Origin: a virus
Strand: one strand, 5' to 3'
IMG/VR virus record: IMGVR_UViG_3300030098_004195
Location: 1 to 43,694 of that record
DNA: 43,694 nucleotides
The notes beneath the pieces are model-generated. The model made no database searches. It was not told the DNA's origin and saw only the letters and a list, made by a program, of their open reading frames with translations. The position numbers and the translations under genes were made by a program. Positions 12,022 to 36,000 of the stretch are shown piece by piece (the stretch's first letter is position 1; every line of letters starts with the position of its first letter).

Positions 12022-12101
12022 AATAAGGCTGTGGATTTATTAGAGGATACTCGAAACCCGCTTGGGAAAGTACAGTATTAGTCTCGGTTCACAGCTTTAT
12101 T
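12022..12101 (+). ncRNA. Structured RNA leader candidate
   Basis: A 12-bp closing stem (AATAAGGCTGTG with CACAGCTTTATT, one G-U pair) encloses a second helix ATACT/AGTAT and a CCC-GCTT-GGG hairpin, with purine-rich internal loops. It lies directly upstream of the AAGGAG site of the next gene. It resembles a riboswitch or self-processing leader in form, but I cannot assign it to a known class. Confidence 0.55.
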
Positions 12102-12122
12102 GAAAATTAAGGAGTAATTAAA

Positions 12123-13105: not shown

Positions 13106-13366
13106 ATGGCAACCAATACACCTACAGTAAGAAAACTAGAAATCCATGAGAATGGCGATTGGACTAGTAAAACAGTAACTTGTAATACAATAGGAGAATT
13201 AAGAGTAGAGCTTAATATTCCTGATGGCGTGCAAGTAAACATCAGTGATACTATTTATACTGATAACACAGCAGAAATGCCAGAAAATAAAACAGCAGAA
13301 GACGGTACTATTATACCATTATTTGTTGGCTGGCAAGCGAATAATAAGACAGGAGGCTCAAAGTAA
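13106..13366 (+). CDS. Ubiquitin-like (beta-grasp) protein with C-terminal Gly-Gly
   Basis: An 86-aa protein. I chose the ATG at 13106 because the AAAGGAG site lies 8 nt upstream; the GTG at 13100 is too close. The pattern fits a beta-grasp Ubl: strand (VRKLEIHE), strand (TSKTVTC), helix start (NTIGELRVEL), then the ThiS/ubiquitin-like ending TAEDGTIIPLF and a tail NNKTGGSK. The Gly-Gly two residues before the end is the usual site that E1 enzymes activate after a protease removes the extra residues, here Ser-Lys. The E2-like, JAB and E1 genes follow directly, which strongly supports a modifier role. A stand-alone search would be weak because Ubl sequences diverge fast. Confidence 0.65.
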   Translation: MATNTPTVRKLEIHENGDWTSKTVTCNTIGELRVELNIPDGVQVNISDTIYTDNTAEMPENKTAEDGTIIPLFVGWQANNKTGGSK

Positions 13367-13396
13367 TGCCTACTGTTTAAATAAGATAATATAATT

Positions 13397-13535
13397 AATG
13401 GGGACAACAACTGGTCCTCCTGTATGGTAAAGATGACATATTTCCAATTTGGCCAGTCATCTACAGGGAAAATAAGTCCAAGAGCATATAAATGCGTATC
13501 GTTCAGGCAAAGGAATATGTGAGTCCCCATTATAA
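13397..13535 (+). ncRNA. Repeated structured RNA element, copy A
   Basis: A 9-bp closing stem (AATGGGGAC with GTCCCCATT) encloses conserved ends and a variable centre. The first 22 nt (ending AACTGGTCCT) match copy B at 24846 except for one base, and the last 31 nt (starting AGGCAAAGGAATATG) are identical in both. The centre here folds into CCTGT/ACAGG, AGATGAC/GTCATCT and a GCAT-ATAA-ATGC hairpin, unlike copy B. The copy ends 17 nt before the start codon of the E2-like gene. Regulatory RNA or processing element; class unknown. Confidence 0.72.
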
Positions 13536-13552
13536 TTACGGAGAAAATAAAG

Positions 13553-15154
13553 ATGAACTTAAAGATAAATTTTGAAGAAGATAAGAATACAGATATATTA
13601 TTTTATCAAAAAACACCTTTTCGTGTATACGAAAATGGTGCGACTCTTGATAATTGGTTTGAACGTAAAGTTACAATAACTAGAGATTTTAGTGATATTG
13701 GAGAATTAATAAACTTAGAAGATTTTGCCTATTCAACATCAATGGAAGATATAGTTAAATTTAATCAAGAGTTAGATAGTGTAAATGAAGATTACGGAGG
13801 TATGTTAAGAAGCTATGATAGTAAATATGTGTTTGGTGTATCAAAGAAATATGCATGGAAACCAGGGATATATGATGCTATTAGGCATATAATTAATTAT
13901 TTAAATGAATCTAATAAAAGAGCTGCTAAAATTGAAACGTTATTTAAAAGGATAGAATACAATAGATATGCTTATGATAGATTTAAAACTCGTATGAATA
14001 ATTTATCTATACAAAGAGACAAAGCTAAAGCTGCTAGCGGTAGTCTTGTTGATAACATGGAAGACTTAATGGATATCCAAACTAATGTTATAAATAAAAT
14101 AAATGAATCTACATTACAAGCAAATTCAATGTCAGATAAGTTTAATATTTATAATTATGTTACGAATGTTCCAGAAGATTCTGAGCCCAGCTTTACTAAC
14201 ATGAAATTATGGACTATAGTAGTTGCAGAACCTAATGAAATGACTATTATTAATAATGATGGTGGAGAATTATCTAAAATTCAAACACCAAAATTATTAT
14301 TAGCATTTAATAGAAAGCTTTATAAGGTTCTTTCAGGACAATATGATTTCAAACCTCAATTTAAAGCTCATGCTATCCAAGGTATTCACCCATACATTAA
14401 CGACCCTTTTCTTTGGGACAGAGCCTCTGAAGACAGAGCCAGAATAAATCAGCTTCCATGGGGAACATTATGCTTATCATCATTTCAAGATGATATAACT
14501 AGACCTTTAGCAAGGAATGATTATAAATCTTTCTTAATGGGAGTAATGAATTGGAATAGTATCTATAATATTGCAGATACAAATCCATACAATAACCCTG
14601 AAAAGATATATTGGTATATGGGATTCCCTGAAAAAGATATAAATAAAGCGCGTAGGTTAAAAAGCTTTGTTGGATGGAATAATAAACGTTGCTGGTCTTT
14701 TAACTTAAACAATTATATCGATGCTGAATTAAATGAAACACAACAAAGTATAAATAGAAGCATGGATATAGCTAATAGTGCAGTATATTCTAAATATGTT
14801 GTAAAAGACTGTAATAAAAAACAATGCCCATTTAGAGAAGAATGTATTCATTTCATAAGAGCTAAGAATTTTAAAGATTCTAGTGTTGATTGGCTTGAAA
14901 TAATAGAATCTTTCTCTGGATATGTAAATGATGGTATTGTATATAACCAAAATACAATAACAGCTGCGTTTCAAAGAACAATCAGCAAGTTAATGCAAAT
15001 AAGTGTTATAGATAGATGGAACTATTTAGAACAAAACTTAAATGCATCAGAATACTGGGTTGTAGATAATACTATTGAAGATAAAATGAAAAGAAAGTTA
15101 ACTAATTGGCATAGAGCCATTAACAATGAAAGGAGACCTAATTACGATGGCTAA
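13553..15154 (+). CDS. Large E2-like (UBC-fold) protein of the Ubl cassette
   Basis: A 533-aa protein. Residues 216-360 match the bacterial/phage E2-like pattern: a strand region (LLLAFNRKLYK), then GIHPYIN at 278-283, GTLCLSS at 304-310 with Cys307 as candidate catalytic residue, then a helix and SIYNIADTNPYN, like the YNP-DA ending of prokaryotic E2 domains. Residues 105-205 are a coiled coil. Residues 420-431 have C-x4-C-x5-C, a possible metal site. Ordinary E2 enzymes are about 150 aa, so two thirds of this protein is extra. It would accept the Ubl from the E1 encoded two genes downstream. The next gene starts inside its stop region. Confidence 0.65.
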   Translation: MNLKINFEEDKNTDILFYQKTPFRVYENGATLDNWFERKVTITRDFSDIGELINLEDFAYSTSMEDIVKFNQELDSVNEDYGGMLRSYDSKYVFGVSKKYAWKPGIYDAIRHIINYLNESNKRAAKIETLFKRIEYNRYAYDRFKTRMNNLSIQRDKAKAASGSLVDNMEDLMDIQTNVINKINESTLQANSMSDKFNIYNYVTNVPEDSEPSFTNMKLWTIVVAEPNEMTIINNDGGELSKIQTPKLLLAFNRKLYKVLSGQYDFKPQFKAHAIQGIHPYINDPFLWDRASEDRARINQLPWGTLCLSSFQDDITRPLARNDYKSFLMGVMNWNSIYNIADTNPYNNPEKIYWYMGFPEKDINKARRLKSFVGWNNKRCWSFNLNNYIDAELNETQQSINRSMDIANSAVYSKYVVKDCNKKQCPFREECIHFIRAKNFKDSSVDWLEIIESFSGYVNDGIVYNQNTITAAFQRTISKLMQISVIDRWNYLEQNLNASEYWVVDNTIEDKMKRKLTNWHRAINNERRPNYDG

Positions 15155-16121
15155 AATTAATAAGGACTTTATAATAGAAGAAAAATGCTGGAATATTATG
15201 CAACAATTTGCTGGATTAGCATATGATAAAGATAAGAATGAAATATCTGGCTTGTTATGTGTAAAGAAATCTGAGCATCCTGTAACTAATAAACCAGTAT
15301 ATTTATTGTTTGACCCAGTAATTCTAGAACAAGAAAATACTGGTACTACAACAGAGCTAAATGGAGATGCCATCAGAGATTATACTATTAAAGCTGGTAT
15401 GAAACATGGCAAAGACATCAAATTCTGTTGGTGGCATTCTCATCATACAATGGGTGCATTTTGGAGTGGTACAGACCAAAATGAGATAGAAGCATGGAAG
15501 AATGATTCATGGTCCATAGCATTAGTAGTTAATTTAAAACAAGAATATAAATTAAATATTAGTGTTTGGGACCCAGTAGAATATTCTGAAGATGTTCCTT
15601 TAGAGGTTATTAGACCTGTACCTAAACCAACAGCTAAGCAGAAAAAGCAATATGAAGAACTTTGTTCTACTGCTAATCCAATAGGTAATCATACTACTTA
15701 TACTATAGGCAAAGGATGGACTTCTAACTCTAAAGTAAGTAATAAAAACCAAACATCCTTTCTTCAAAATAAAGTAGAAACCGTATTAAATTGGAAAAAC
15801 TCTCAAAATATAATTGCCCTTGCTGAATTAATTGAAAACTTAGATAATGATATTGATGAATTAATTAGCTCAGCTATAGCAGGTGAAACAAGTTATGAAC
15901 TATATGCTAAAGAAGTTGAAAACATGAACAAAATGCTTTTAACTAGAAATGCTAAGATTAAAGTAATAACAATTGCTAAGGGTAAATTATTAGAAAAGGG
16001 AGCTTGTATGCAACCTTGGGAGCATATTAAATATGAAAACAATGAAATAGAAAAAGCCTATGATAATGCTAGGGTTCAGCAATATAATTTAGGCTATAAC
16101 ATAGGAGGATATTTATGTTAA
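15147..16121 (+). CDS. JAB/JAMM metalloprotease (deubiquitinase-like)
   Basis: A 324-aa protein. The start at 15147 is chosen because it overlaps the preceding stop (ATGGCTAA) and follows AAAGGAG; the earlier ATG at 15126 lies inside that ribosome site. The JAMM zinc site is complete: Glu32 (NEISGLL), then HSH at 97-99 followed by exactly seven residues and SGTD at 107-110, the EXnHSHX7SXXD signature. Family members cut at the C-terminal Gly-Gly of a Ubl, either to expose it or to remove it from a target. Residues 160-324 are helical and unassigned. The start of the E1 gene overlaps its stop by 7 nt. Confidence 0.88.
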   Translation: MAKINKDFIIEEKCWNIMQQFAGLAYDKDKNEISGLLCVKKSEHPVTNKPVYLLFDPVILEQENTGTTTELNGDAIRDYTIKAGMKHGKDIKFCWWHSHHTMGAFWSGTDQNEIEAWKNDSWSIALVVNLKQEYKLNISVWDPVEYSEDVPLEVIRPVPKPTAKQKKQYEELCSTANPIGNHTTYTIGKGWTSNSKVSNKNQTSFLQNKVETVLNWKNSQNIIALAELIENLDNDIDELISSAIAGETSYELYAKEVENMNKMLLTRNAKIKVITIAKGKLLEKGACMQPWEHIKYENNEIEKAYDNARVQQYNLGYNIGGYLC

Positions 16122-16783
16122 TAAATACTCGTAGTAGTGGGCTGGTTAATAATCTTAATGATTATGTCTTTCATATTTTAGGTTGCGGAGCTATTGGTAG
16201 CTCTGCAGCCACTCAATTGGTAAGAGCTGGAGCTACTAAATTCTTATTGTATGATATGGATAAAGTAGCAACAGAAAACCTTGGAGTATCTCAATATATT
16301 GATGAAAATATAGGAATGAATAAGACAGATGCTCTAAAAGACCAGTTATCTGCTATTAATGAAGATATCGATGTTATGAAGTATTCAGAATACTTTAAAA
16401 TGTTTAGATATCAAGATAATAATGATATTGTTGTACTTGGATTTGACAGTATGAAATCAAGAAGAGAGGCTGTAGAAAATATATGCAGCAACAAGAAAAC
16501 AAAACCATTTATGTTAATAGATGGAAGAATGGGTGGAGAACATTATCAGCAATATGTTTTTACAGATGTCAGACTAAATAAATATCTAAAAACATGGTAT
16601 TCTGACGAAGAAGGAGACCCAGAACCATGCAACATCAAAGCAACAACATATTGCTCTAATATGGCCGGAAGCTTTATTGTAAATGCTATTAGAAAAGTAG
16701 TTACTAAAAGTCCTTATGAAAGTGAATTGACTTTTAACTTTCCTATGATGACATTGCAAAAAAATACTTGCTTTCCAGCATGA
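16115..16783 (+). CDS. ThiF/E1-like adenylating enzyme of the Ubl cassette
   Basis: A 222-aa Rossmann-type E1. The nucleotide-binding loop GCGAIGSS is at 23-30, the metal/ATP Asp pair in LYDMDKVATENLGVSQY at about 45-61 (the DxDxV..NL..Q motif of ThiF/E1), and the later region has DGRMGGE. Cys172 and Cys180 (EPCNIKATTYCSN) are candidate thioester cysteines. It has only the adenylation domain, without the extra domains of eukaryotic E1. It should activate the C-terminal Gly-Gly of the protein encoded at 13106. Translational coupling with JAB is likely from the overlapping start. Confidence 0.88.
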   Translation: MLINTRSSGLVNNLNDYVFHILGCGAIGSSAATQLVRAGATKFLLYDMDKVATENLGVSQYIDENIGMNKTDALKDQLSAINEDIDVMKYSEYFKMFRYQDNNDIVVLGFDSMKSRREAVENICSNKKTKPFMLIDGRMGGEHYQQYVFTDVRLNKYLKTWYSDEEGDPEPCNIKATTYCSNMAGSFIVNAIRKVVTKSPYESELTFNFPMMTLQKNTCFPA

Positions 16784-16857: not shown

Positions 16858-17532
16858 ATGACACTAAAAAAAGTAAAACGCAAAGCCGTTTCTACTAATC
16901 CGACCTCATTACTTCTATATGGAGCTCCAAAAGTAGGTAAAACTACTATGCTATCTCAGTTAGATGATTGTTTAATTATTGATACTGAAAAAGGAGCCAG
17001 AATGCTAGAAGGTTACATACAAGAAGTCAATAGTAGAGATGATTTAATTAACATGTTGCTAGAAATAAAAGAAAGCAAGGATGTTAGTTATAAATATGTA
17101 GCAATAGATACCATAGATAAAGTAGCTGAATGGGCAGAACAAAGAGTGTGTGAAGAAGAAAACGTTCGTTCTATAGCTGATTTAGCATTTGGTAAAGGCT
17201 ATGGGTTAGTAAGAGAAAAGGTAGCTAAAACAATATCTGCCTTTAAAGATGTTTGCGAGCATCTAATAATAATAGGACATAGAAAAGTAGCGTATGCAGT
17301 AACAGAAGGCAATCCAATAGTTATACCTGAGTCACTTGATTTGACAGGTAAGCTTAAGAATGTTATTATGGCTGGTTGTGATGCTATAGGTTATGTCTAT
17401 CGTAATGAAAAAGAAGATTTGATGGTATCTTTTAAGGCTAATGAATCAATAGAAGCTGGAAGTAGATGCCCTCATTTAAAGGGTAAAGAAGTTAAATTTG
17501 AATGGAAAAATATATACAAGGAGAAAAAGTAA
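16858..17532 (+). CDS. Sak4/RecA-like ATPase (conventional order)
   Basis: A 224-aa P-loop ATPase of the AAA_24/Sak4 type used in phage recombination and replication. Walker A YGAPKVGKTT at residues 21-30; IIDTEKGARML at 40-50; Walker B YVAIDTIDK with Asp84; sensor-like HLIIIGH at 135-141. Such proteins anneal or load on single-stranded DNA, and normally stand beside an SSB gene, as here. A permuted relative is encoded at 23570-24331, in which the same blocks appear in rotated order. It overlaps the next start (ATG at 17532). Confidence 0.82.
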   Translation: MTLKKVKRKAVSTNPTSLLLYGAPKVGKTTMLSQLDDCLIIDTEKGARMLEGYIQEVNSRDDLINMLLEIKESKDVSYKYVAIDTIDKVAEWAEQRVCEEENVRSIADLAFGKGYGLVREKVAKTISAFKDVCEHLIIIGHRKVAYAVTEGNPIVIPESLDLTGKLKNVIMAGCDAIGYVYRNEKEDLMVSFKANESIEAGSRCPHLKGKEVKFEWKNIYKEKK

Positions 17533-18122
17533 TGGCTATATTTAAACCAGAAGACAAAGGAAGTTCAACAGGGAGCTCTTATTTAGGAGTTGTTGAATGT
17601 GGCATAGTAGGATTTGAAGACAAATCTAGCTTATTTGATTGGTCAGATATATTTATTGAAGTAGAGTTATCTATTAAGAACAGTGAATATACTAATAGAA
17701 TGTCAATTATAGGCTCATTAGATAAAGATTCTATGGGTAAGATAACAGGAGGGTCTGTATTGAAAAAGATGTACAGATTCTTTGATATGATAGGATGTTC
17801 AGCAGGACTAACAATAGATGGTAAGTGGGAAGATGAGCACGGTAATGAAATTGATGATATTGGTACATATTTAAAAGAAAGATACTGCACAACAGGACAA
17901 GAATATGTTGCCTATCTTTATAAGAAGAAGCCAAAACCGGGAAAGAAAGTGTATACAGAAGTATATCCTAGGTTGTATCCTAATACAGCAGAAGGTAAAG
18001 CTGGCTGTCAAAAAGATACTGAATGGTTAAAATCTCAAGGACACCTTAAAGAAGCTACATCAGCTGATATGATTCCTGCTTCAAATGCTACATTAGCAGA
18101 TAGTGCATTAAGTAATCTATGA
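17532..18122 (+). CDS. Probable ssDNA-binding protein (first copy)
   Basis: A 196-aa protein. I use the ATG at 17532, which has an AAGGAG site; a non-ATG start 30 nt earlier would overlap more of the previous gene. It lies between the Sak4-like ATPase and the primase-helicase, the usual place of the phage single-strand-binding protein. The N-terminal 120 residues are strand-rich, like an OB fold, and the tail is Ser/Ala-rich. It differs strongly from the second copy at 24331, so the role is inferred from position. Confidence 0.55.
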   Translation: MAIFKPEDKGSSTGSSYLGVVECGIVGFEDKSSLFDWSDIFIEVELSIKNSEYTNRMSIIGSLDKDSMGKITGGSVLKKMYRFFDMIGCSAGLTIDGKWEDEHGNEIDDIGTYLKERYCTTGQEYVAYLYKKKPKPGKKVYTEVYPRLYPNTAEGKAGCQKDTEWLKSQGHLKEATSADMIPASNATLADSALSNL

Positions 18123-19885
18123 AATATGTAGAGATAGCAGTTCAATCTCCTAGAAGTAGGGGTATATTGATACTAAAGTCTGATTTATATAAATATATAA
18201 AGAAAGATGGAGAGGCTTTGTATCGTTCTGTTTATCTTTACGATGATGATGCTAAGCAATATGCTGATATGAAGGGCAGTTTAAAAGGCTATCATGGAGA
18301 GCGTGGAATAGATAATGTTTTAATTGATATTGACAGAAAAGATAATTCCAATGAATACACATTAAAGAAGTTGAGGGAAACTTTAACTCATTTAAGAGTA
18401 TTAGAAGTACTAGATGAAAGCATTCAATGTTATTTCAGCGGTACTGGATATCACATCGTGATAACAAATAAAGTGTTTAATTTCCAACCTTCTGATAGCC
18501 TGCCCTATCAGGTAAAACAAACTATGTCAAAGCTTTTTGATGGCATTGATACTAGTATCTATATGAGAAGTGGGATATATAGAGTCGCACATACTAGAAA
18601 TCAAAAAACAGGACTGTATAAAATACCTATAACTATGAATGAAGCACATAACTGTACATACGAAGAAATACATAAACTAGCATCTGACTCTAGGGTAGAG
18701 TATCCATATGATTTATTAGATGGAGATAATGAGCTAGAAGGGTATAAATGCGTAGATAAGCCAAAAGTACAAGAATTTGGCAAGATTACTGAACCTACGA
18801 AGATAGTACCGTGCGTACAAACAATGCTTAAGAATGGGCCCTCTGAGGGCTCTAGGCACAATACAGCACTTAGAATAGCTTCTCACTTCAAAAGGCATGG
18901 CATACCAAGTGAATATGCAAAAGTATCATTATTGCATTGGAATAACAATACTTTAAACGAACAAAGTATAATAGAAAAGACAGAATCCGTATACAATGGA
19001 AACTATAACTACGGATGTCAAGATGTGTTAATGAAAAAGTATTGTCAGACCAAATGCGTATTCTTTAAGAATAAAGATTATCATATACATGTAAAAGACT
19101 CAGATGAGCTACAAAAGGAATTTGAAGATAGATTAGCAACTAACTTTGAAGGTCGAACTATTCCTTTGGCTAAAATGTTTGGGTTAAATGAATATGATAC
19201 TCAGATATATCCCGGTGAGTTAGTCACCATATTTGGACCAACAGGTTCTAATAAAACTACACTAGCACAAAATCTTGCTCTTGGAGTAGATTTTAAAAAC
19301 GATTGTATCAACCCTAAATGGCAGATACCTACATTATTTCTGTCTCTTGAATTATCAGCATGGTATATGCATAGGAGGCATTTGCAAATAGTATCTGGAT
19401 ATAGTAAAGAAGAAGTAAATGAAAACTATAAAGAACTATATAAAGAGCATGCAGATGAATTAAGACATCTGTCAATACAAACTATAACACCAACAATGAA
19501 ATCTATACAAGATAAAATAAAACAATTAAACCCATATGCAGTTATAGTTGATTATATAGATTTGGTTGATACACCACCACATATAAAAGGAGAGTATGAG
19601 CAGATAAAATACATCTCTCATAGTTTATCTAATTTAGCTGTTAATTTAGATGTAATAATAATTCAAGTATCTCAAGTAAGTAGAGAATACAGCAGAAATG
19701 AAGTACTAGATTTGTATGCAGGAAAAGGCTCAGGAGCCATAGAAAACGCTTCGCGTAAAGTGATAGGTTTGAATGGCCAAGCAAATACTAATGTAAAGCA
19801 TATACACATGTACAAGAATACTGATGGAGAATTGTTTGATGTTGAGGTTGAATGGCGTGAAAGTTTTAGACTGAGGAGGGTTTAA
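18119..19885 (+). CDS. Primase-helicase (AEP primase plus RecA-fold helicase), copy 1
   Basis: A 588-aa replication protein. Primase part: NVLIDID with D70/D72, SGTGYH at 107-112, and IYRVAHTRNQKTG at 153-165, the DxD, SxH and R motifs of archaeo-eukaryotic-type primases. Then a Cys cluster (C300, C309, C313). Helicase part: P-loop FGPTGSNKTT at 372-381, in which the usual Gly before Lys is Asn; Walker B YAVIVDYIDL. It is likely to unwind and prime the phage DNA. Its start overlaps the SSB stop as ATGA. A diverged copy is encoded at 24964. Confidence 0.85.
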   Translation: MKYVEIAVQSPRSRGILILKSDLYKYIKKDGEALYRSVYLYDDDAKQYADMKGSLKGYHGERGIDNVLIDIDRKDNSNEYTLKKLRETLTHLRVLEVLDESIQCYFSGTGYHIVITNKVFNFQPSDSLPYQVKQTMSKLFDGIDTSIYMRSGIYRVAHTRNQKTGLYKIPITMNEAHNCTYEEIHKLASDSRVEYPYDLLDGDNELEGYKCVDKPKVQEFGKITEPTKIVPCVQTMLKNGPSEGSRHNTALRIASHFKRHGIPSEYAKVSLLHWNNNTLNEQSIIEKTESVYNGNYNYGCQDVLMKKYCQTKCVFFKNKDYHIHVKDSDELQKEFEDRLATNFEGRTIPLAKMFGLNEYDTQIYPGELVTIFGPTGSNKTTLAQNLALGVDFKNDCINPKWQIPTLFLSLELSAWYMHRRHLQIVSGYSKEEVNENYKELYKEHADELRHLSIQTITPTMKSIQDKIKQLNPYAVIVDYIDLVDTPPHIKGEYEQIKYISHSLSNLAVNLDVIIIQVSQVSREYSRNEVLDLYAGKGSGAIENASRKVIGLNGQANTNVKHIHMYKNTDGELFDVEVEWRESFRLRRV

Positions 19886-20922: not shown

Positions 20923-21483
20923 ATGGAATTATATAAAATATATACAAAAAACAATAAATTAAAATTAGTATATCCTAAAAGTCTGGCAATGCAAATTATG
21001 TCTGAGATGAAAGTAGGTGAAAAGTTTTACTTTGATGTAACAGAAGAGAGAGCTAGACAATGGTGTAAAATATATCAACGTAAACAATGGCATCATTATC
21101 GTGATATACCTAATTATATTTTAAATGGTGAAAATTATCCTAAAGTTAATCCTAATGAAGTTAAAAGAAGGCTTCATGTAGTATTTAAAGTAAAAAGAGA
21201 AGGTGCTTTAAGATGTATACAAAAAGTAAAATCTGATTGGGTGTATACTGATAAAAAGTTTGCTTCTCAATATAAAGGCAGAGAATTAATTACTCCAATA
21301 TCAGAAGCTGAATTTAGTGTTAGAACACATAATTGTCTTTTAAATGCTGGATTTAAATATCTTGAAGAGATTATGGATATTCCTGATACTAGATTATTAA
21401 AGTATAAAAATATGGGACGTAAATCTGTAAAGGAAATAAGAGAAAAATTAAATGAATACAGGCAAATTAAGGAGACTAAATAA
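20923..21483 (+). CDS. Protein with RNA polymerase alpha C-terminal domain
   Basis: A 186-aa protein. Residues 127-180 match bacterial alpha-CTD closely: SVRTHNCLLNAGFKYLEEI, then LLKYKNMGRKSVKEIREKL. The DNA-contact residues of E. coli alpha-CTD have equivalents: R134 (E. coli R265), N137, C138, N163, G165, K167, S168. The N-terminal 120 residues (charged, with WCKIYQRKQWHHY) are unassigned and lack the alpha-NTD dimerisation domain. It probably binds AT-rich UP-like promoter DNA or the host transcription machinery. The start has AAAGGAG and lies behind the structured leader. Confidence 0.85.
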   Translation: MELYKIYTKNNKLKLVYPKSLAMQIMSEMKVGEKFYFDVTEERARQWCKIYQRKQWHHYRDIPNYILNGENYPKVNPNEVKRRLHVVFKVKREGALRCIQKVKSDWVYTDKKFASQYKGRELITPISEAEFSVRTHNCLLNAGFKYLEEIMDIPDTRLLKYKNMGRKSVKEIREKLNEYRQIKETK

Positions 21484-23569: not shown

Positions 23570-24331
23570 ATGAAAACACTATATGTTGACCTAGAAAATG
23601 GGTATAAATCCCTAGGAAGCAGAGATAGTATTAAACAAATGTTTGGATATAGTCCACTTGAATTTAATACATTTTCTGATTTCTCATCATTTATAGGACA
23701 ACTATGGACTCGTGAAAGAGTGCAATCAGTTGTTGATATAGATGGTGTTAAAGTAAATCAAACAGCTATCAAAGTTGTTCCTAAAGATAATCATAAAGTA
23801 CAATGCATGGTTATTGATACAGCAAGTGAGATGGCTAAAAAGTACGCAAGAGAGTTAAAAGGCTCTCAAGATGCGTTAAAACTACAACAATGGGGTAAGC
23901 TAAAAGATAAATTAGATAGTTTCTTTGCTTTTACTAACTCTATACCATGTAGTTTAATAGTTAATTGTCATTCTAAAGCAGAGCAAGACAATGAGAATGG
24001 TGTATTGCGAATGATGCCATATATTGAAGGTTCTACTAAGGTAGATGTCGGTAAATGGTTTGACTTTGTACTATATACTAAAGTTAAAAAGAATAAAAAA
24101 GGTGAAAGAGAGTATGTTTGGGTAACAGCACGTGACGAACACTATTGTCATGCAAAAGATAGAAGTCAAATGCTAGAACCTGAAATGCCTCAAGACTATC
24201 AGACTATTCTAAATGTAATTAAGGAAAAAGGCTGGGATTCAGCAAAGATTCTTATTATAGGAGAACCTGGTAGTGGCAAAACACTTAGTTGTAAAACATT
24301 AATTAATAATAAAACACAAGGAGAAAAGTAA
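23570..24331 (+). CDS. Circularly permuted Sak4/RecA-like ATPase
   Basis: A 253-aa ATPase whose motifs are rotated relative to the conventional protein at 16858. It begins with LYVDLENGYKSL (equivalent to LIIDTEKGARML), then Walker B VQCMVIDTAS with Asp83, sensor-like SLIVNCH with His134, the strand block YIEGSTKVDVGKWFDFVLYT, and only at the C-terminus Walker A IIGEPGSGKT with Lys237, followed by a short helix. All blocks of the family are present, so a circular permutation is the simplest reading. The frame has no stop and no frameshift sign. The next gene (SSB-like) starts in TAATG overlap, as expected for a Sak4-SSB pair. Confidence 0.8.
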   Translation: MKTLYVDLENGYKSLGSRDSIKQMFGYSPLEFNTFSDFSSFIGQLWTRERVQSVVDIDGVKVNQTAIKVVPKDNHKVQCMVIDTASEMAKKYARELKGSQDALKLQQWGKLKDKLDSFFAFTNSIPCSLIVNCHSKAEQDNENGVLRMMPYIEGSTKVDVGKWFDFVLYTKVKKNKKGEREYVWVTARDEHYCHAKDRSQMLEPEMPQDYQTILNVIKEKGWDSAKILIIGEPGSGKTLSCKTLINNKTQGEK

Positions 24332-24831
24332 TGGCAATTACTGTAAAAGAAAGTTCAGGAACATCCTTCGGTGAAGGTTGGAAAAATGTAACTATAAGTG
24401 AAGCTAAACGTGGAGATTATAATGGCTCTGGTTATGTTGACTTATGGTTTGAAGACTATCCAGAAACTCTTAAATGTAGAGTCTGGGAAGCAAGAGGACA
24501 AGATGGAGAAGAGTTTAGCGTATCTAACATGATTCGCAGCTGTAATCCTGATGTTCTTGAAGAACATGAGTCAGAAGATGGAAGTAAAATAGCATCTTTA
24601 GATGATAGTCCAGCTTCATTAAAAGGTAAGAAACTTCAAGTATTATTCTATAAAAATGCTAATGGATATGCAGAAGTAGCTCAGAAAGTAGCTCCTGCTG
24701 TACCATTTGAAAATGCAGTAGATAAATATACTGAAGATAGAATCGAAAATATAAAGCAAGCAGCTGAGAAATACATTGCTGGTAGGACACAAAAGCCTGC
24801 TGACAGTACAGCTACTGCTGACCCTTTCTAA
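24331..24831 (+). CDS. Probable ssDNA-binding protein with DPF tail (second copy)
   Basis: A 166-aa protein between the permuted ATPase and the second primase-helicase. The N-terminal 120 residues are strand-rich and acidic, like phage SSB OB folds. The C-terminus is an acidic/polar tail ending ADPF, similar to the D-x-PF tip by which bacterial SSB recruits partners. No close match to the 196-aa copy at 17532, so the two are paralogues only by position. Confidence 0.6.
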   Translation: MAITVKESSGTSFGEGWKNVTISEAKRGDYNGSGYVDLWFEDYPETLKCRVWEARGQDGEEFSVSNMIRSCNPDVLEEHESEDGSKIASLDDSPASLKGKKLQVLFYKNANGYAEVAQKVAPAVPFENAVDKYTEDRIENIKQAAEKYIAGRTQKPADSTATADPF

Positions 24832-24845
24832 ATAACTAACCTATA

Positions 24846-24946
24846 AATGGGGACAATAACTGGTCCTGTAAGTCCTACACTCGTTGGTAGCGAGTCGCCA
24901 ATAGCTTATGCTAGTAGGCAAAGGAATATGTGAGTCCCCATTATAA
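24846..24946 (+). ncRNA. Repeated structured RNA element, copy B
   Basis: Same closing stem and conserved ends as copy A at 13397: AATGGGGAC/GTCCCCATT, a 22-nt 5' part with one difference, and an identical 31-nt 3' part. The centre differs and folds as CCTAC/GTAGG, ACTCG/CGAGT and TAGC-TTAT-GCTA. It ends 17 nt before the second primase-helicase ATG, with the ribosome site between. Conserved ends with different but still paired centres argue for a functional RNA. Confidence 0.75.
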
Positions 24947-24963
24947 CCCCAAGGAGAAATAAT

Positions 24964-26703
24964 ATGATAAGAGAATTTGCTTTTAGCTATTCTGATAGAC
25001 ATCATTTCTATGATTCATCTAAGAAATCATCATTTGAGAATACAGCTAAAGATACATTTATTTCTTTGTATGGTTATGATAGCTATGCAATTAAATTCTT
25101 TAATGGAACTAAATCATTATCAGGTTTTGATGGTAAGATATATATGCCTAAAGAATTTTTGCTTGATGTAGATGGCGGTACAGTTGAAAATGCTAAAGCT
25201 AAAACAATTGAATTGCTAAAATTACTTAAATCCTTAGAAGTACCATATAATATTTATTTTAGTGGAAGAGGATTTCATGTAGGGATACCTGACACTTCAT
25301 TTAAATGGGAGCCTTGTCAAAATCTACATCTTAAGGTTAAAGATGAACTTACTAAGAAAGGTATATATAACTATGCAGACCCTTCCGTTACAGATAAAAC
25401 TAGAATCATTAGATTGAATAATACTTTAAATACTAAATCCAGATTATGGAAAATATATTTAGATGAAAATGAATTAAACAATCTATCTGGCTTAGAAATA
25501 CAAGCATTAGCATCTAAATCAAGACAAGATAAATTGCCTCAAGATTTAGTTGCAGTTAATCCAGTATTTGATGTTCTTGTTCGTAATACTAAGAAAGAAA
25601 CTGTAATGTATAAAACTGAAGTAGGTATGAATCCTGACCCAGTTAATCATCCATGTATATCTTCTATGTTACAAGGAACTTCATTTGGCAATAGACATGC
25701 AGTAGCATTGCGTATTGCTGCGTGGTTAAGATGGAGATACCCTGAACATACAGTTAGATTAATAATGGAAGATTGGAGGAAAAGAGTAAGTAGTGATGAC
25801 CATCCTTTCAATGAATCAGAAATGAGTAGGTTAGTTACTGATTGCTATAAAGGTCATGGTGGTAGTGGATATAGATATGGATGCATGGATACAGTAATGG
25901 ATAGTTTCTGTAAATCTACATGCAAGATATATAAAGCTAAGAAATCTACTAGTCTTATGTCTGCAGAGCAAATGGAAAATGCTTTAGTCAATTTCTATAG
26001 GAGTGATTTAAAACCTATAAATGTAGGAGAACATTATGGTTTAGATTTCCCTATATATCCAGGTGAACTTGTTGTAGTACAAGCTCCTCCTAAATCAATG
26101 AAGACTATGCTGATACAAAACTGGGTTAATAATCTAAAGAAACCTACTTATTTCTTAGAAATGGAAATGAGTGCTAGACAAATATGGCAAAGGTTTATCC
26201 AAATTGAAAAGGGATGGACTGAAGATGAAATCAGACAATACTATGCAACTAACATGCAGGGTATAAGCGATTCATTTAAATGGCTGTATGTAGATTATGC
26301 ACCTTGTATGGCTCTTGAGCTTGAGAAGAAAATCAATATGCTTCCAATAAAACCAGAGGTAGTAGTTATAGACCATATGGGATTAATGCAATCAAAGCAT
26401 AAAGACTTAAATCTTAAGATGGAAGAAATAGCACAAGCATTAACTGAAGTTGCTATAAGAAATAATATTGTAGTATTTGCTATTTGCGAAATAACTAAAA
26501 CTGCAATGACAGAAGGTATGAACATTGCATCTGTTAGAGGTTCGTTTAGAATAGCATATAATGCAAGTAAAATATTATCTATTTCAGCCAGGAAAGGACC
26601 TGGAGGTAATATCACTCATTTAATAGTTGATACAACTGCTAATAGAGAGAAAGAACAATTCAATGTTACTTTAAAAGTAGATAATTTAAAAATGACAACA
26701 TAA
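24964..26703 (+). CDS. Primase-helicase, copy 2
   Basis: A 579-aa paralogue of the protein at 18119. Primase motifs: FLLDVD with D68/D70, SGRGFH at 100-105, and TRIIRLNNTLNTKS near 146-159. Cys cluster C307, C316, C320 in the same pattern as copy 1. Helicase P-loop is degenerate: APPKSMKTM at 374-382 keeps Lys380-Thr381 but lacks the Gly residues; Walker B VVVIDHMGL. With the permuted ATPase and the SSB-like gene it forms a second complete replication set. The presence of the whole set, and not of a pseudogene, suggests a specialised role. Confidence 0.85.
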   Translation: MIREFAFSYSDRHHFYDSSKKSSFENTAKDTFISLYGYDSYAIKFFNGTKSLSGFDGKIYMPKEFLLDVDGGTVENAKAKTIELLKLLKSLEVPYNIYFSGRGFHVGIPDTSFKWEPCQNLHLKVKDELTKKGIYNYADPSVTDKTRIIRLNNTLNTKSRLWKIYLDENELNNLSGLEIQALASKSRQDKLPQDLVAVNPVFDVLVRNTKKETVMYKTEVGMNPDPVNHPCISSMLQGTSFGNRHAVALRIAAWLRWRYPEHTVRLIMEDWRKRVSSDDHPFNESEMSRLVTDCYKGHGGSGYRYGCMDTVMDSFCKSTCKIYKAKKSTSLMSAEQMENALVNFYRSDLKPINVGEHYGLDFPIYPGELVVVQAPPKSMKTMLIQNWVNNLKKPTYFLEMEMSARQIWQRFIQIEKGWTEDEIRQYYATNMQGISDSFKWLYVDYAPCMALELEKKINMLPIKPEVVVIDHMGLMQSKHKDLNLKMEEIAQALTEVAIRNNIVVFAICEITKTAMTEGMNIASVRGSFRIAYNASKILSISARKGPGGNITHLIVDTTANREKEQFNVTLKVDNLKMTT

Positions 26704-29401: not shown

Positions 29402-29475
29402 TGGAATTACTATTTTCTTTTGTAGTAATAATATTCGGATGGATGCTAATTAAATTTATATTTAATCCCGATTAA
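29398..29475 (+). CDS. Single-span membrane micropeptide (25 aa)
   Basis: ATGATG start overlaps the preceding stop. 25 aa, almost all hydrophobic (MMELLFSFVVIIFGWMLIKF). It overlaps the end of the convergent late gene by 14 nt. Could be a holin-like or inhibitor peptide; certainty is limited by size. Confidence 0.4.
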   Translation: MMELLFSFVVIIFGWMLIKFIFNPD

Positions 29476-32400
29476 GAGCTTCAACTAACGCAACTTTAAA
29501 CCCTAAGAAATCTGTAATTGGAAAAGCTGGATTAGCCATATTTATTAATTCAACTGCTCTCCAAGCTGCAGTTCTTCCATCTCCAGCAATACCAGAATAT
29601 ATTCCTAATAAAGTATCTAAAGCAAACCTAGGTGCAAATCCTATCATAGGTACTCTACTCATATAATGTTGAAGAGTTCTTTCAACTTCTTCATCATCAT
29701 CGTATCCTCCCATCATAGCCATTATAGTTAAATTAATAGGTGCTAAATATAAAGCAAGTAAATCAGAAGACATTCCTCTAGCTACTGTCTTAGCAACACC
29801 TAGTTGTTTTGATAATCTGTATGGAACTGATAATCCTCCTAGTAATAAAATATCAACCATTCCAACTAAAATTGTTTGTGAAATTACAAAATTTCTAATA
29901 GTAGCTGCTTCTGGATTTAACTTTCTAAGTTTTAAAGCATTTTTTGGATTCAATATGTCTTTCCACAGCTTCATTAAAGCTTTTACATTATCTACTCTAG
30001 TATCTAAAGGACCTAACTCCCCTTTTAAATTCTCTAAACTTTTATATGCATTTTTACCTTCATTAAGTATCCTTTTATCTCCACCAAATTTTTGTTGCGA
30101 CCAGTAAACAAACTTACCCATCTGATTACCAATTGCTCCCATATTAAATTCACCAACGTCAGAAGTTGATAGCCCATAATTTGAAAGCTTAGAGAACCAT
30201 CTACCATATTCAATAGCTAAAGATTCTTCTTGTGCATTAAATTCATTTAAAGGTTTTCTAGGTATAATTCCTAAATCTTGAGCATGTTCTACACCTATCA
30301 TAAATGCAACAGACCTAATAAATGTCTCTGTTTTACCCATAGTTATACCATATGCCTTTTTTAAATTAGGCCAAGCTGTATATGTACTTGCTACAACATT
30401 ATATAAATTAGCTTTAGACATTTTCATATCTATCCCTAGCATTTTCATTGATACTCCACTAAGATGTCTTGAAAATTGATATTCTTTATTAATAGCAAAA
30501 TTGGCAAACTTAGACATTAAATCTCTATTTCTCTGTTCTTTTAGTTTTGACATTCTTTTTTTAGCTCTGCCTTCACTAATAACAGTAATCCCTTCATGAA
30601 TTAAATTCCATGCCCTTGAATCATTTAATGCACGAGAAATTAATTCTTCCATTTCTTTCTTGTATTTAGGCTCACCTTTTCTATTCTTATTTACTTTCTT
30701 CCAATAAACTAACATTGCTCCTAATATTTTATGTGAAGTGGCAGCTTCTAATTGGGTATCAGCAATATCATTTACCATAGTTTCACTAAAGAAATCATTA
30801 AAGTCAATTACTCCAGAACGAGATATTAAATCCATCATAGGGTCATTATTTTTCATACTTAAATATCTCATTGTATGTCTATGGGTAAGCCTAATCCCGA
30901 AAAGATTAGCATGTTGAGTTATTGCTGTCATATTCTTTAACGAAGTAATAGCTCCACCTAAGTATCTTCCTGTAATAAAAGAACCTATTGTTTGAGAGAC
31001 ATGCTGCACTTTTTCAGCTTTAACAGGACCGAATCTAGTTACATTATCAGCAGAATATTTAATAGGTCCTAAAGTTCCATAAGTAGATGTTTTATTAAAA
31101 GGAACACTATAATAATTCATCATATATTCAAATATTTCTTCATTGATATTCCCATCTTTATCCTGTATCATTCCCACAGATTCTATTAGCTGTGCTGTAA
31201 GAAGGTTTCTTTCTATAGCAGTCATTCCTGTCTTAAGGTAGTCATTATAGACACCTGCATCCATTCTCATATTCATAGGATTAAATGCATTAGTAATTCT
31301 TTTTAAATGTTTTTGGTCTGCTGTAACAGGGACTAAGTCTCCTCCTTCAACATTCATACCATAATCATCTCTATTGTCACGTATAATTTCCATTCTTCTT
31401 ATAGCCGATTCTGTAGAGTTAATATCTTTTCTAAGTGCAGAATGAGCACTCATCCCTTTATAAGCTTTACCTTTATAAAAATGGTCAAATTTAGATATTT
31501 TATCAGTATCAGACTTCTTAATTGACTTATCCCAATTCTCTTTAGTCTCTTTAAGATTTTTAAGATTGTTTCTTAATTCTGCCAATGCATTATCATACAT
31601 CATATTAAACTTATCTTTATTGTAAATAATAGGGAAGTGATTCTTCTTAAAGCTAGTATCATCAGTTTGATATTGGAAAAAATCTAAACTTGTGAAGCCA
31701 TCAAATGATTTCATATATCTATCATATAATTTTTTTTGGTTGGAATTTAAAGTACCAATTGCAGTTTTGCCTACTTTAGATTTTGGATTAAAGAACATTG
31801 CTTTTATTTGGTCTTGACTTAATTTAGGAAATTGCTTGGAATAAGCTTCTAATAACTTATCTACAGATTTATCAAATTCTTTTTGGAAGTATTTAAAAAC
31901 TTCATTATCTATTTTTCTAGCTCTTTCAATTAAAGCTTCAAGTTTATCTATAGCTTCAGAAGGTAATGGTAAATTATATTCTCCATCAAATGCAGTTTCT
32001 ATAGGTTCAAAATTCTGAAATTCAAATTTAGCACTACCATCTTGTCCAGGAGCATCATAAAATTCTACCTTATCGTCTTTATCTTTCTTAGTATTGTAAT
32101 TTGTAGCTATAAAGAATTTTTTTTCAGTACCAATAACCTTACCGTCTTCATTTTTAATTTCAACATCTCTAATCTCAACCCATCCTGTCATTATCTGATG
32201 AAATAATTCCTGTATGGCTATATCATTATGCCTATATCCTGCTTGATAAGGAATATGAGTATCTCGAATAAGAACACTACCATCTTCTTTTAAACCCGCA
32301 TATTCATTAACAATTTTCTGTAGTTCTTCAACTATAGTTGCCATTCCTTCATAAAACTTACTTTTGACTACAGGCTTTCCAGATGTATCTTTAGTAACCC

Positions 32401-33022
32401 AACTTTCTTTACGACCTTTTGCAAATAAATTAATTCTATTTTGAACAGCTTCATAGTAGCTTCTCATAGCATTAGCAAATTTATATAAAGCTCCTGTATT
32501 CTCTCGCTTACCTAGCTCTTGTGGAGTATATAAACTTTTCTTAAAACTTCTTACTATACGAACGATAATGTTTCCTTTGCTCCCAAAGATACCATGGTTT
32601 TCATCAGAATCATTAAATTGAGTTAATACAGCTATCATATTTTTTAAAGTAGATAGAGGATAGTCACGAAGTCTTTTATATTTTCCTATTAAACCCTTAT
32701 TTAATAAGTAGTCTTTTAAAATAATTTTACCTACTGGATTTGTTCTTAACAATGCTTTTATTTCTATTGAGTGAAGTTCTCGTTCATTTACTTCACCATA
32801 TATATCAGAATAAGCTTGTCTAACAACATCAGTTTCTATTATATCCCCAGTATTTATACCCTTAGATTCTAATTCAAGTTCAATCTTAGATATTATTTCT
32901 TCTTCAAGTTCATCGCTGGGGAATAAATTTTCAACACTATTATCTAAATTATCAGAAACTTCTTTATGAGTTTCGTCTAAAACTTTATTAGTATTTTTTG
33001 TTATATCACATTTATCGCTCAT
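29462..33022 (-). CDS. Giant internal virion-type protein (1186 aa)
   Basis: A 1186-aa protein, the last gene of the right late block. It is largely helical and charged. The last 145 residues contain hydrophobic stretches (ISQTILVGMVDILLLGGLSV, then LLALYLAPINLTIMAMMGGY) like membrane-inserting parts of ejected proteins. No enzyme motif was recognised. Its start overlaps the 2498-aa gene by 4 nt. By size and position it resembles ejection (pilot) proteins that pass with the DNA into the cell. Confidence 0.65.
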   Translation of the reverse strand: MSDKCDITKNTNKVLDETHKEVSDNLDNSVENLFPSDELEEEIISKIELELESKGINTGDIIETDVVRQAYSDIYGEVNERELHSIEIKALLRTNPVGKIILKDYLLNKGLIGKYKRLRDYPLSTLKNMIAVLTQFNDSDENHGIFGSKGNIIVRIVRSFKKSLYTPQELGKRENTGALYKFANAMRSYYEAVQNRINLFAKGRKESWVTKDTSGKPVVKSKFYEGMATIVEELQKIVNEYAGLKEDGSVLIRDTHIPYQAGYRHNDIAIQELFHQIMTGWVEIRDVEIKNEDGKVIGTEKKFFIATNYNTKKDKDDKVEFYDAPGQDGSAKFEFQNFEPIETAFDGEYNLPLPSEAIDKLEALIERARKIDNEVFKYFQKEFDKSVDKLLEAYSKQFPKLSQDQIKAMFFNPKSKVGKTAIGTLNSNQKKLYDRYMKSFDGFTSLDFFQYQTDDTSFKKNHFPIIYNKDKFNMMYDNALAELRNNLKNLKETKENWDKSIKKSDTDKISKFDHFYKGKAYKGMSAHSALRKDINSTESAIRRMEIIRDNRDDYGMNVEGGDLVPVTADQKHLKRITNAFNPMNMRMDAGVYNDYLKTGMTAIERNLLTAQLIESVGMIQDKDGNINEEIFEYMMNYYSVPFNKTSTYGTLGPIKYSADNVTRFGPVKAEKVQHVSQTIGSFITGRYLGGAITSLKNMTAITQHANLFGIRLTHRHTMRYLSMKNNDPMMDLISRSGVIDFNDFFSETMVNDIADTQLEAATSHKILGAMLVYWKKVNKNRKGEPKYKKEMEELISRALNDSRAWNLIHEGITVISEGRAKKRMSKLKEQRNRDLMSKFANFAINKEYQFSRHLSGVSMKMLGIDMKMSKANLYNVVASTYTAWPNLKKAYGITMGKTETFIRSVAFMIGVEHAQDLGIIPRKPLNEFNAQEESLAIEYGRWFSKLSNYGLSTSDVGEFNMGAIGNQMGKFVYWSQQKFGGDKRILNEGKNAYKSLENLKGELGPLDTRVDNVKALMKLWKDILNPKNALKLRKLNPEAATIRNFVISQTILVGMVDILLLGGLSVPYRLSKQLGVAKTVARGMSSDLLALYLAPINLTIMAMMGGYDDDEEVERTLQHYMSRVPMIGFAPRFALDTLLGIYSGIAGDGRTAAWRAVELINMANPAFPITDFLGFKVALVEALNRD

Positions 33023-36000
33023 CTACATACCCTTTTAACAATTTCATTTAAAGTAGTATTAGTACCCCATTTATGTTTTTCTCTAAATAAATTTTGATTA
33101 GTAGCTTTATCCTTATTAGTCAAAGCTTCATTGTAATATTTAAAGTACTTTTCTAAAACTTTTTCATGTAAAGTTTGATATTCTTTTTTGCTACGACTAG
33201 CAGCAGGGAAACCAGCTCTACCTGCATATACTTGCTGCGAATATTGCTTCAAAAATACAAAAGTGGCAGCTACTTTAGCAACTTCTGATAATTCTTTATA
33301 TTGAGGGTCCCATTTTTCTTTAAATTCAATAAAAGTATCATTCCTATCCATAGTACTTAAACTCATAGTTTTATATTTTTTAATCCTAGAGAAGAAATCA
33401 GATGTCATATCTTCACCATAACTTCTACCCTTTTCAGCTTCAGATTTAATAAATTCATTTTTATCTAAAAGCTCTGTTTTATCTTTATTCCATGCAGATT
33501 CAAATAACTTGTCATACTCATTGACCAATCTATCTAAAGATTCTTTGTGTGCGTTAGCATGAACAACACTTAAGATTTTTATAGGACTACCATCTTCAGA
33601 TTGTACAAATCCATCTTTTTCATTTAACATTAAATATTCTTTATACATTTTATATGGTACAAGAGCTACTCTTTCTATTGGAGAAATAGAGCTAGGTTTA
33701 AATGATATGTCTACTATCCCTCCATCTCTTCCTTGCTCAAGATTAAGAAGGTATCTTTTCCTATCTTTTATATATTCAGTATAAGCTCTACTTTCTTCTA
33801 TTTGGTCTGAAAGGTTTATTTTTGAAAACTGACCATCCTGAGTTACCCCCTGACCTCTTCTAATTAGACCAGGTTTTTTATGCATATCTATTAAAGGCTT
33901 CATTTTTATAACATCAAATTCAGTAGCTGACTTTCCATTTTTATCTTTAAACAAATTAGCAAACATCTTCATTTGAGAATAATTCCATTGTCCTAAAAGC
34001 ATAAATTCTGAATTATCTACAGCTGCCTGAAGTATAATTCTTAAATAATCTTTAACTTTTATATCTACATAATGCTTCTTCTTTCCTTTGCTATCTATAT
34101 AAGAAACATACCATCTAAAAGTTTCATTAGGTTTTCTTAAAGTAAATGTAGTGTTTTCATAAGAGTCTGTATTGTAAATAGTAACTGACTCTAATGCATC
34201 TTGCAACTGTCCATAGATTGATTGAATATTTGTTATTTCACCAATAGCTTTTTTGCCCTGAGATAATGCATCCATAATACGTATTCTGTCAGCAATGCTA
34301 GACATTTTGCCACCCTGAAAGCTATTATTAACATATCTATTTAAGTCTATACCTTTAACTTCTTTATTAATTTTTTCGAAAGCTTTTTTAAATGGAGCTT
34401 CCATACCTTTAGGTAACAATTCAACTTGAACATGGTCACCATCATAATCACCTTCTAATTTAGCAAAAGTATCTGTTGCATTTAATTCTATTAATGACTT
34501 CTTAGTATGCAATCTTTTAACTCTAGCTAATATAACACCTCCAGCGTGTGGTACAGGGAATCTTGTTATAAATACATTAACCTCATTATCCTTAAGCCAG
34601 GCATTGATTTCATGTATATCTTTTTTTCTATCAAAATCAGAAAGAGGTTTTCCCATTGCATTTGCGTATGCTTGCCATATCATAGTAGAATTTTGAGTTG
34701 CTAATGAAACTTCATTTTCTTTTAAATCCCCTCTAAAATTAGGAGACATATCATATCTAGAACCTTCTTGGTAAGAAGATTGTATAGCAGGGATTGCAAG
34801 TTTGTTCATCATTAAGCTATTTAAAATAGGTTCTAATGACTGATGCCTTCCAGCACCTAATTTAGCTAGCTCTAATATAGTAGGTAAATAACCTTCATTA
34901 TCATTTTTTTCTAAATATGCTAAGAAGTCTTCAATCATTTTAGGAGACATATCTCCTTTAAAGTTATTATATAACTTTGCATAATTATCTTCTATTTCAG
35001 GTAATATATGTTCTCTAAATGCATTTATAACTTCAGGGTCAAATATATGATTATACCATTGCATACCATGTTTAGCATTTTTAGCAATTGTATTTTCAAT
35101 CTTACTTACTCCAATAGTTTTCCCAGGCATTTCAACTACATCTTCAGCTAACTCTCCATTTGATATTTTAATCTCATCTGAGGTAGATAACATATCTACA
35201 TACTCACCATTTTTATCTTTTCCGTAATAAATAATATTGCCTTTATTATCTACTTCTACTAATAACTTTTCACCAGCCTTACCATAATTTTTATATATTT
35301 TTACCCCAGGGTCAACTGCAAATTGCTGATGCTTCATCATTAATACATCATCACCTTGCTTATTATAGATAAAAGTTTTAGCCTTATGGGAATCTGAACT
35401 AAATCCAAAAAATGTTTTAAACTTCTTAAACATATCTCTTGAAGTTAAAGTAGCACCGTCACCTATATACTTACTTTTAACTCCAGGCATTGAATTGTTT
35501 CTCATTTTGGTTTCAAAAGTTTCTTCACCTTCAGTATAAACCCATGATAAATTATCTTCCATTGGATTCAATCTTGCTAATTTATAATTAGGCATTTCCT
35601 TAGAATAAGAAATACTACTAGTTGGAATAGGCAATCTTTTTAAAGTAGTAGTTAATTTTTCAGATGCATATTTAGGCCATACACCTTTTAAAGCTTCATG
35701 CACTGCAATATTAGCAGCTATTTCTTTTTGAGACAACCAATTACCATCTTCATTTTTAGTATAATTCTCAACATCTTTTTTACCTACATACTTCTTCTGA
35801 CTTACCCAATAATCTAAAATAGATTTTTTAGTCTTAGCTATTTCTCTATGAGAATCTGTTATACTTGCAAAATAAACTTGAGGCTTATCTCCTCTGGTAG
35901 ATATTAATGCAAGATTATGTTGGTCTAATACTCCTCTTAAAGCTTGAAATTCATCTGTTGTTAAAAAACTTCCTCTTGATAAATATCCATATATATTTTC

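Follow-up and report, generated by a model that had tools for sequence, protein, structure and literature searches.

A Core Four-Gene Module of a Phage Clade Is Predicted to Specify Reversible Ubiquitin-Like Conjugation

Results

The cassette and its conservation

The IMG/VR virus record IMGVR_UViG_3300030098_004195 (43,694 bases, analyzed over its full length and called the window below) contains four consecutive genes, here called the cassette, that encode a ubiquitin-like modifier (Ubl), an E2-like (ubiquitin-conjugating-like, UBC-like) protein, a predicted JAMM/JAB protease (JAB) and an E1-like enzyme (E1):

13106..13366, + strand: Ubl modifier, 86 aa, from the ATG at 13106, ending ...NNKTGGSK
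13553..15154, + strand: E2-like (UBC-like) protein, 533 aa, with HP280YI, C307, W334, NP345YNNP and C425
15126..16121, + strand: predicted JAMM/JAB metallo-isopeptidase, 331 aa, start more likely at 15147
16115..16783, + strand: E1-like adenylating enzyme (ThiF/UBA5-like), 222 aa, candidate catalytic Cys172

A first-pass annotation, made from the sequence alone, had placed four open reading frames (ORFs) here, in one direction and with the last three overlapping. All four coordinates hold, as do the E2/JAB and JAB/E1 overlaps; however, the JAB gene more likely starts at the ATG at 15147 (MAKINKDF..., with AGGAG upstream) than at 15126, which shortens the E2/JAB overlap from 29 to about 8 nt. 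The motifs that had been read from the translations were also recovered: the C-terminal Gly-Gly of the Ubl (followed by an SK tail), the E2-like motif (GIHPYI...WGTLC307L), the full JAMM signature (E39 and H104-S-H106-x7-S114-x2-D117) and the ThiF-type E1 motifs (GCGAIGSS and D47MD49KV..N55L).

Pattern scans of IMG/VR identified 295 stretches related to the E1 and at least 334 related to the JAB (overlapping contigs included); using purpose-built hidden Markov models (HMMs), we annotated 67 distinct complete cassettes from viral contigs. The gene order Ubl-E2-JAB-E1, which the first-pass annotation had expected to recur in relatives, is found in 67/67, with median intergene gaps of 111, −1 and −11 bases. 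We then resampled the clade via the downstream primase-helicase to remove the bias of searching with the cassette itself; among the loci with enough upstream sequence, the E1 is present in 59/59, the JAB in 47/47, the E2 in 29/34 and the Ubl in 25/31. When read by eye, the five E2 misses proved to be a divergent (sister) cassette with the same gene order, and the sixth Ubl miss (locus L208) has a small ORF in the right place, ending ...GNKKGGIINQLLNTPFIK. Because the E1 and JAB are present at every such locus and the misses are explained on reading, the cassette is a core module of this phage clade.

The residues expected to be catalytic are conserved as well. Across 66 homologues (the analyzed sequence included), K81, G83 and G84 of the Ubl, C307, W334 and C425 of the E2-like protein, E39, H104, H106, S114 and D117 of the JAB, and the GxGAIGS, D47 and D49 motifs of the E1 are invariant. 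Two scans of genome contigs turned up no bacterial cassette of this type, the sole matches being two short crAss-like contigs in metagenome-assembled genomes; no close cultured relative of the clade was found by terminase, helicase, capsid, JAB or E1.

The Ubl modifier, E1 and JAB

KxGG occurs at the C-terminus of all 67 HMM-aligned Ubls: 35 stop exactly at GG, and the others carry a short variable tail. Some Ubl ends in the primase-helicase sample are more divergent (KRGG, NTGG, KGG), and those of the sister group end in NKSG, alone or with one additional residue. In these alignments the glycine end is constant and the residues after it are dispensable, the pattern of a modifier that undergoes processing. 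The AlphaFold2 (AF2) model of the Ubl (mean predicted local distance difference test score, pLDDT, 79.7) has the order strand-strand-helix-strand-strand-strand, that is, the beta-grasp order that the earlier annotation had named as a test of its reading. In a Foldseek comparison with the PDB, the top neighbors are mostly beta-grasp proteins (Mth1743, TtuB, ThiS and Ub-like domains), with E-values of 0.03 or higher and probabilities up to 1.00. Searches of Pfam, PHROG, NCBIfam and PDB sequences with the Ubl of the analyzed genome gave no meaningful match, although the ThiS family is matched by 14/50 members of the Ubl family; PDB matches of the Ubl profile were rejected as a WD40 repeat artefact.

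The E1 matches Pfam ThiF (1.5e-20), and its profile matches MccB (5e-11) and UBA5 (9e-11) in the PDB as well as ThiF, MoeB, Cap2 and Citrobacter BubCD. Cys172 of the E1, in the motif EPCNxKAT, is present in 63/66 sequences of the raw ORF set and is invariant in the curated alignment; it is also kept in the crAss, Flavobacterium and sister sequences described below (read by eye), whereas Cys180 is not. Because the C-terminal half of the E1 matched nothing in the PDB, the proposal of Cys172 as the candidate thioester residue is based on this conservation and on its presumed likeness to the catalytic Cys of UBA5. The analyzed JAB alone matches Prok-JAB at 3e-4, a score below the model cut-off, and 47/47 members of its family match; the JAB profile matches RPN11 in the PDB (8.5e-5), and the JAMM signature (E...HxHx7Sx2D) is invariant in 66/66.

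The E2-like protein

The members of the E2-like family are two-part proteins of 427-670 aa with a helical C-terminal half that contains the invariant C425. The family is highly divergent (mean column identity 18%), yet C307 (66/66) and W334 are invariant as well, and P280 and P345 are nearly so. Sequence searches of Pfam, PHROG, NCBIfam and PDB gave no meaningful match; weak Pfam matches to P_proprotein and Vps52_CC were rejected as chance. The AF2 model (pLDDT 84.8) contains a helix, a strand meander, the HPY loop, Cys307 and helices. In a viral library, Foldseek found six strong matches, all of them unnamed relatives, and E2 matches that were weak only; the model also matched A0A1B0WLX5 (420 aa; E 1.6e-3), which is probably the same-length Flavobacterium phage protein.

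The sister cassettes are closer to the classical E2 signature: their E2 genes encode HPHIQNGRPCL, HPHIRQGSPCM, HPHISNGNACL, HPHISRGQACL and HPHIQNGSACM, and within 776,297 six-frame ORF residues the motif HPx(I/V)..G..C is confined to those five sister proteins. Because a Foldseek search of the PDB gave no E2 match, we tested the E2 identity by HHalign profile comparison with column-shuffled controls, using a human E2 profile of four sequences. The human E2s score 24.3 against the analyzed family (maximum of 100 column shuffles, 17.6), with GSICLDIL paired with GTLCLSSF, and 27.5 against the sister family (maximum of 60 shuffles, 24.5), with HPNI..G..CL on HPHI.NG..CL. The analyzed and sister families score 46.7 (shuffle maximum, 23.2), with HPYI on HPHI and Cys on Cys, and the crAss and sister families score 30.1 (shuffle maximum, 22.1); the direct comparison of human and crAss E2s did not rise above shuffles (30/100 as good). 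By these profile scores, the sister-phage E2s are a bridge between the human E2s, the analyzed protein and the crAss-like phages. The first-pass annotation had expected a UBC fold around Cys307; Foldseek did not recover one from the PDB, but in the profile alignments Cys307 and HPYI fall on the HPN/Cys site of the human E2s. The E2 call is the weakest of the four assignments.

A related block in crAss-like and Flavobacterium phages

Among 50,697 records searched by tblastn, the E1 identified only crAss-like phages (Crassvirales, Steigviridae and unclassified look-alikes) and phages of Flavobacterium psychrophilum. Both gp79-gp76 of crAss001 and a block in FpV4 share the order of the analyzed cassette, that is, Ubl-like, E2-like, JAB and E1. 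Profiles built only from crAss sequences match the analyzed family at 1e-34 (E1) and 1.3e-11 (JAB); on this comparison the E1 and JAB of the two blocks are clearly homologous. The crAss E2 site differs from the analyzed one (HSHx...PCLGxGPI), and the genomes of the crAss-like phages and FpV4 are larger, with no close match there to the analyzed capsid and terminase.

The block lies near genes for primase, a Sak4-like ATPase and uracil-DNA glycosylase; in the crAss-like phages it is located between the primase and a downstream hypothetical gene plus the glycosylase, whereas in FpV4 the glycosylase is upstream instead. The genes of the block are annotated as hypothetical, metalloprotease or thiamine biosynthesis, and their PHROGs category is unknown function. 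The block is unmentioned in the main texts checked on crAss001 and crAss-like genomes. In phage cr106_1 (L151, 2696-3899), an HNH endonuclease gene splits the Ubl domain from its C-terminal extension, leaving a 92-aa Ubl that ends in KSGKF.

Genome context and structured RNA

The cassette is located in the early/replication half of the genome; the capsid, portal and terminase genes form the other arm. The genes directly downstream of the E1 and two copies of a structured RNA are as follows:

16858..17532, + strand: Sak4-like ATPase, directly downstream of the E1
17502..18122, + strand: conserved 206-aa protein at the usual place of a single-stranded-DNA-binding protein (SSB), a label taken from position only
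18119..19885, + strand: primase-helicase, the independent marker of the clade
13396..13532, + strand: structured RNA in the Ubl-E2 gap, with a covarying closing stem and the invariant core AACUGGUCCU...GCAAAGGAAUAUGUGA
about 24840-24955, + strand: second copy of the RNA, with the same core

Family searches with the 206-aa protein gave no clear match. The RNA between the Ubl and E2 genes (folding z −4.1; no Rfam match) is present in a subset of cassettes. Its core is common to 26 distinct copies. Across the eight positions of the closing stem, every distinct flank pair keeps the pairing (16/16), and several positions have changed on both sides of the stem. The element is not exclusive to the cassette, since it also occurs, always on the + strand, in other intergenic gaps of many related phages; Ubl-E2 gaps that lack the core often fold well too (33/48 gaps in all have z < −2). 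The element resembles a riboswitch, a ribozyme or a processing element of an undescribed kind.

Several other features of the window were recorded. A compact hairpin-like stretch (GGCTGTG...CACAGCT ends) at 12030-12105, upstream of the cassette, was seen by eye only. The window has two sets of Sak4-like ATPase plus primase-helicase (16858-19885 and 23570-26703), the second of which is matched in only 6-7/29 relatives. A 186-aa protein (20923-21483) ends in an RNA polymerase alpha C-terminal domain (PF03118, 3.6e-18); it is found in 1/29 relatives and is a possible transcription takeover factor. On the − strand, 29462-40515 codes for proteins as large as 1186 and 2498 aa; the 1186-aa one has no PHROG match.

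Discussion

We infer that the four genes probably encode a reversible Ubl-conjugation cascade. In this cascade, the JAB would trim the short Ubl tail back to Gly-Gly, and the E1 would adenylate the Ubl C-terminus with ATP and hold the Ubl as a thioester (candidate Cys172); the Ubl would then move to Cys307 of the E2-like protein, which would join it to a target amine. As no E3 gene was recognized, the long helical C-terminal half of the E2-like protein perhaps picks the target. The JAB would later take the Ubl off the target again.

The cassette adjoins replication genes in two distantly related phage lineages, each of which has Sak4-like, primase and helicase genes close to it; on this ground we propose, tentatively, that the targets are proteins of early infection, most likely the phage's own replication/recombination proteins (Sak4, SSB-like, primase-helicase). 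The first-pass annotation had listed a host protein, a virion protein or host defense as possible targets; this option, to which the gene neighborhood points, was absent from it. More broadly, the cassette may be a "SUMO-like" module, old and part of the core of tailed phages, common to the clade and to crAss-like and Flavobacterium phages, with the replication/recombination machinery of the phage itself as the target of reversible tagging, independently of host immunity; we offer this as a conjecture.

Several points weigh against these proposals. Neither a substrate nor an E3 gene was identified for the cascade, and the Foldseek search of the PDB with the E2-like model returned no solved E2 (best E 0.9). 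In single profile comparisons, the Ubl (8e-4) and E2 (0.011) are only weakly alike those of the crAss-like phages; moreover, the crAss Ubl has one Gly (KSGA/KSGL) and then a long extension, unlike the analyzed Ubl. The Ubl of FpV4 reads KSGG before its C-terminal extension. In the cyclic-oligonucleotide-based anti-phage signaling system (CBASS), one terminal Gly or Ala is enough for conjugation (PMC10097602), which is relevant to the KSG/KSGA ends. The proximity of replication genes is no more than suggestive of a role, and orthology between the two lineages is established for few of their neighbors (homology of the SSB-like proteins is unsupported).

The same genes could serve other ends. If the Ubl were a sulfur carrier, the E1 would thiocarboxylate it in the style of ThiS/MoaD/CysO, with the JAB as processing protease and the 533-aa protein as acceptor. 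The 14/50 Ubls that match ThiS and the ThiF types that head the NCBIfam models for the E1 are in keeping with this, as are some bacterial Ubl+E1+JAB sets without an E2 that are tied to sulfur metabolism (PMC1779556); however, the E1 misses all NCBIfam ThiF/MoeB cut-offs (best 84.5 versus 159 bits), the neighbors scanned (not every small ORF) include no sulfurtransferase, rhodanese or cofactor enzyme, and the third protein has an E2-like HPx(I/V)...GxxC site, so we regard a sulfur carrier as improbable. A peptide product in the manner of microcins, that is, a ribosomally synthesized and post-translationally modified peptide in which an MccB-type E1 adenylates a short peptide to give a small molecule, would account for MccB scoring best among the solved structures that the E1 matches (5e-11). 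We consider it very improbable: UBA5 scores equally well, the "peptide" is in the model a folded beta-grasp protein with an invariant GG, and it never comes without a JAMM isopeptidase and an E2-like partner.

Host takeover or counter-defense would use the same chemistry on host targets (RNA polymerase, defense proteins, or a Ubl defense system of the host, which the phage would swamp or undo). The location in the early/replication half of the genome fits this, and for Borg elements it has been proposed that their JAMM proteins reverse tagging by the host (PMC12660748); nevertheless, we think it rather unlikely, as the 59/59 conservation in the clade argues for a core function and a full forward cascade is unnecessary merely for undoing host tags. 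Counter-defense genes are usually patchy, and the universal presence in the clade therefore favors a core role.

Compared with known systems, the cassette shares parts with several. The bacterial Bil operon (BilA-D) has the order Ubl, E2, deubiquitinase, E1. The first-pass annotation had proposed a phage modifier system related to Bil; the complete Ubl-E2-JAB-E1 set in a Bil-like order stands, whereas a specific kinship with Bil finds no support in the profile matches listed. UFM1/UBA5/UFC1 and Atg8-type cascades have a compact single-domain UBA5-type E1, a short tail after the terminal Gly and a dedicated protease; that protease is of the cysteine type, whereas the one here is JAMM, and the sequence similarity is remote. 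Like the cassette as predicted, Bil, Cap2-Cap3 CBASS (PMC10097602) and Bub combine E1, E2 and JAB (with or without a Ubl), thioester chemistry and a JAMM deconjugase. These are bacterial anti-phage systems, whereas the cassette is a core phage module beside replication genes; its E2, a two-part protein of 427-670 aa, has no family match, and its E1 and E2 are separate. Bil is encoded by bacteria as anti-phage defense, and the cassettes occur in phage genomes with capsid, portal and terminase; in PADLOC 2.0.0 only Cap2-type E1-E2 models were among the matches listed (the presence of Bil models there was not established). PRTRC and "row 6d" Ubl-JAB-E1-E2 operons have the same four-component content (PMC1779556), but the PRTRC models are matched weakly (PRTRC ThiF, 4e-6; PRTRC A, 0.066), the cut-offs of TIGR03735 (12.8 versus 101.8 bits) and TIGR03736 (26.3 versus 144.75 bits) are missed, and no other PRTRC genes were recognized in the analyzed genome. 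A 2006 survey reported Ubl plus JAB in phage tail loci (PMC1779556); Lambda TAPI/TAPK is such a pair, a phage Ubl with a JAB protease in the tail-assembly locus, but without an E1 or E2 (PMC1779556).

Among the papers that could be searched, none was found to describe an E1-E2-JAB-Ubl cascade in phages; we claim no priority. The sister families extend the diversity known for E2 active sites and Ubl termini (GG and single G), and crAss001 and DAC15 (Bacteroides phages) and FpV4 (a Flavobacterium phage) are in culture, so phage Ubl conjugation and its targets are directly testable. Bacterial Ubl conjugation is known mainly as anti-phage defense; if the cascade proposed here is correct, the usual picture would be reversed, that is, bacterial viruses would themselves run protein tagging, not only bacteria against viruses.

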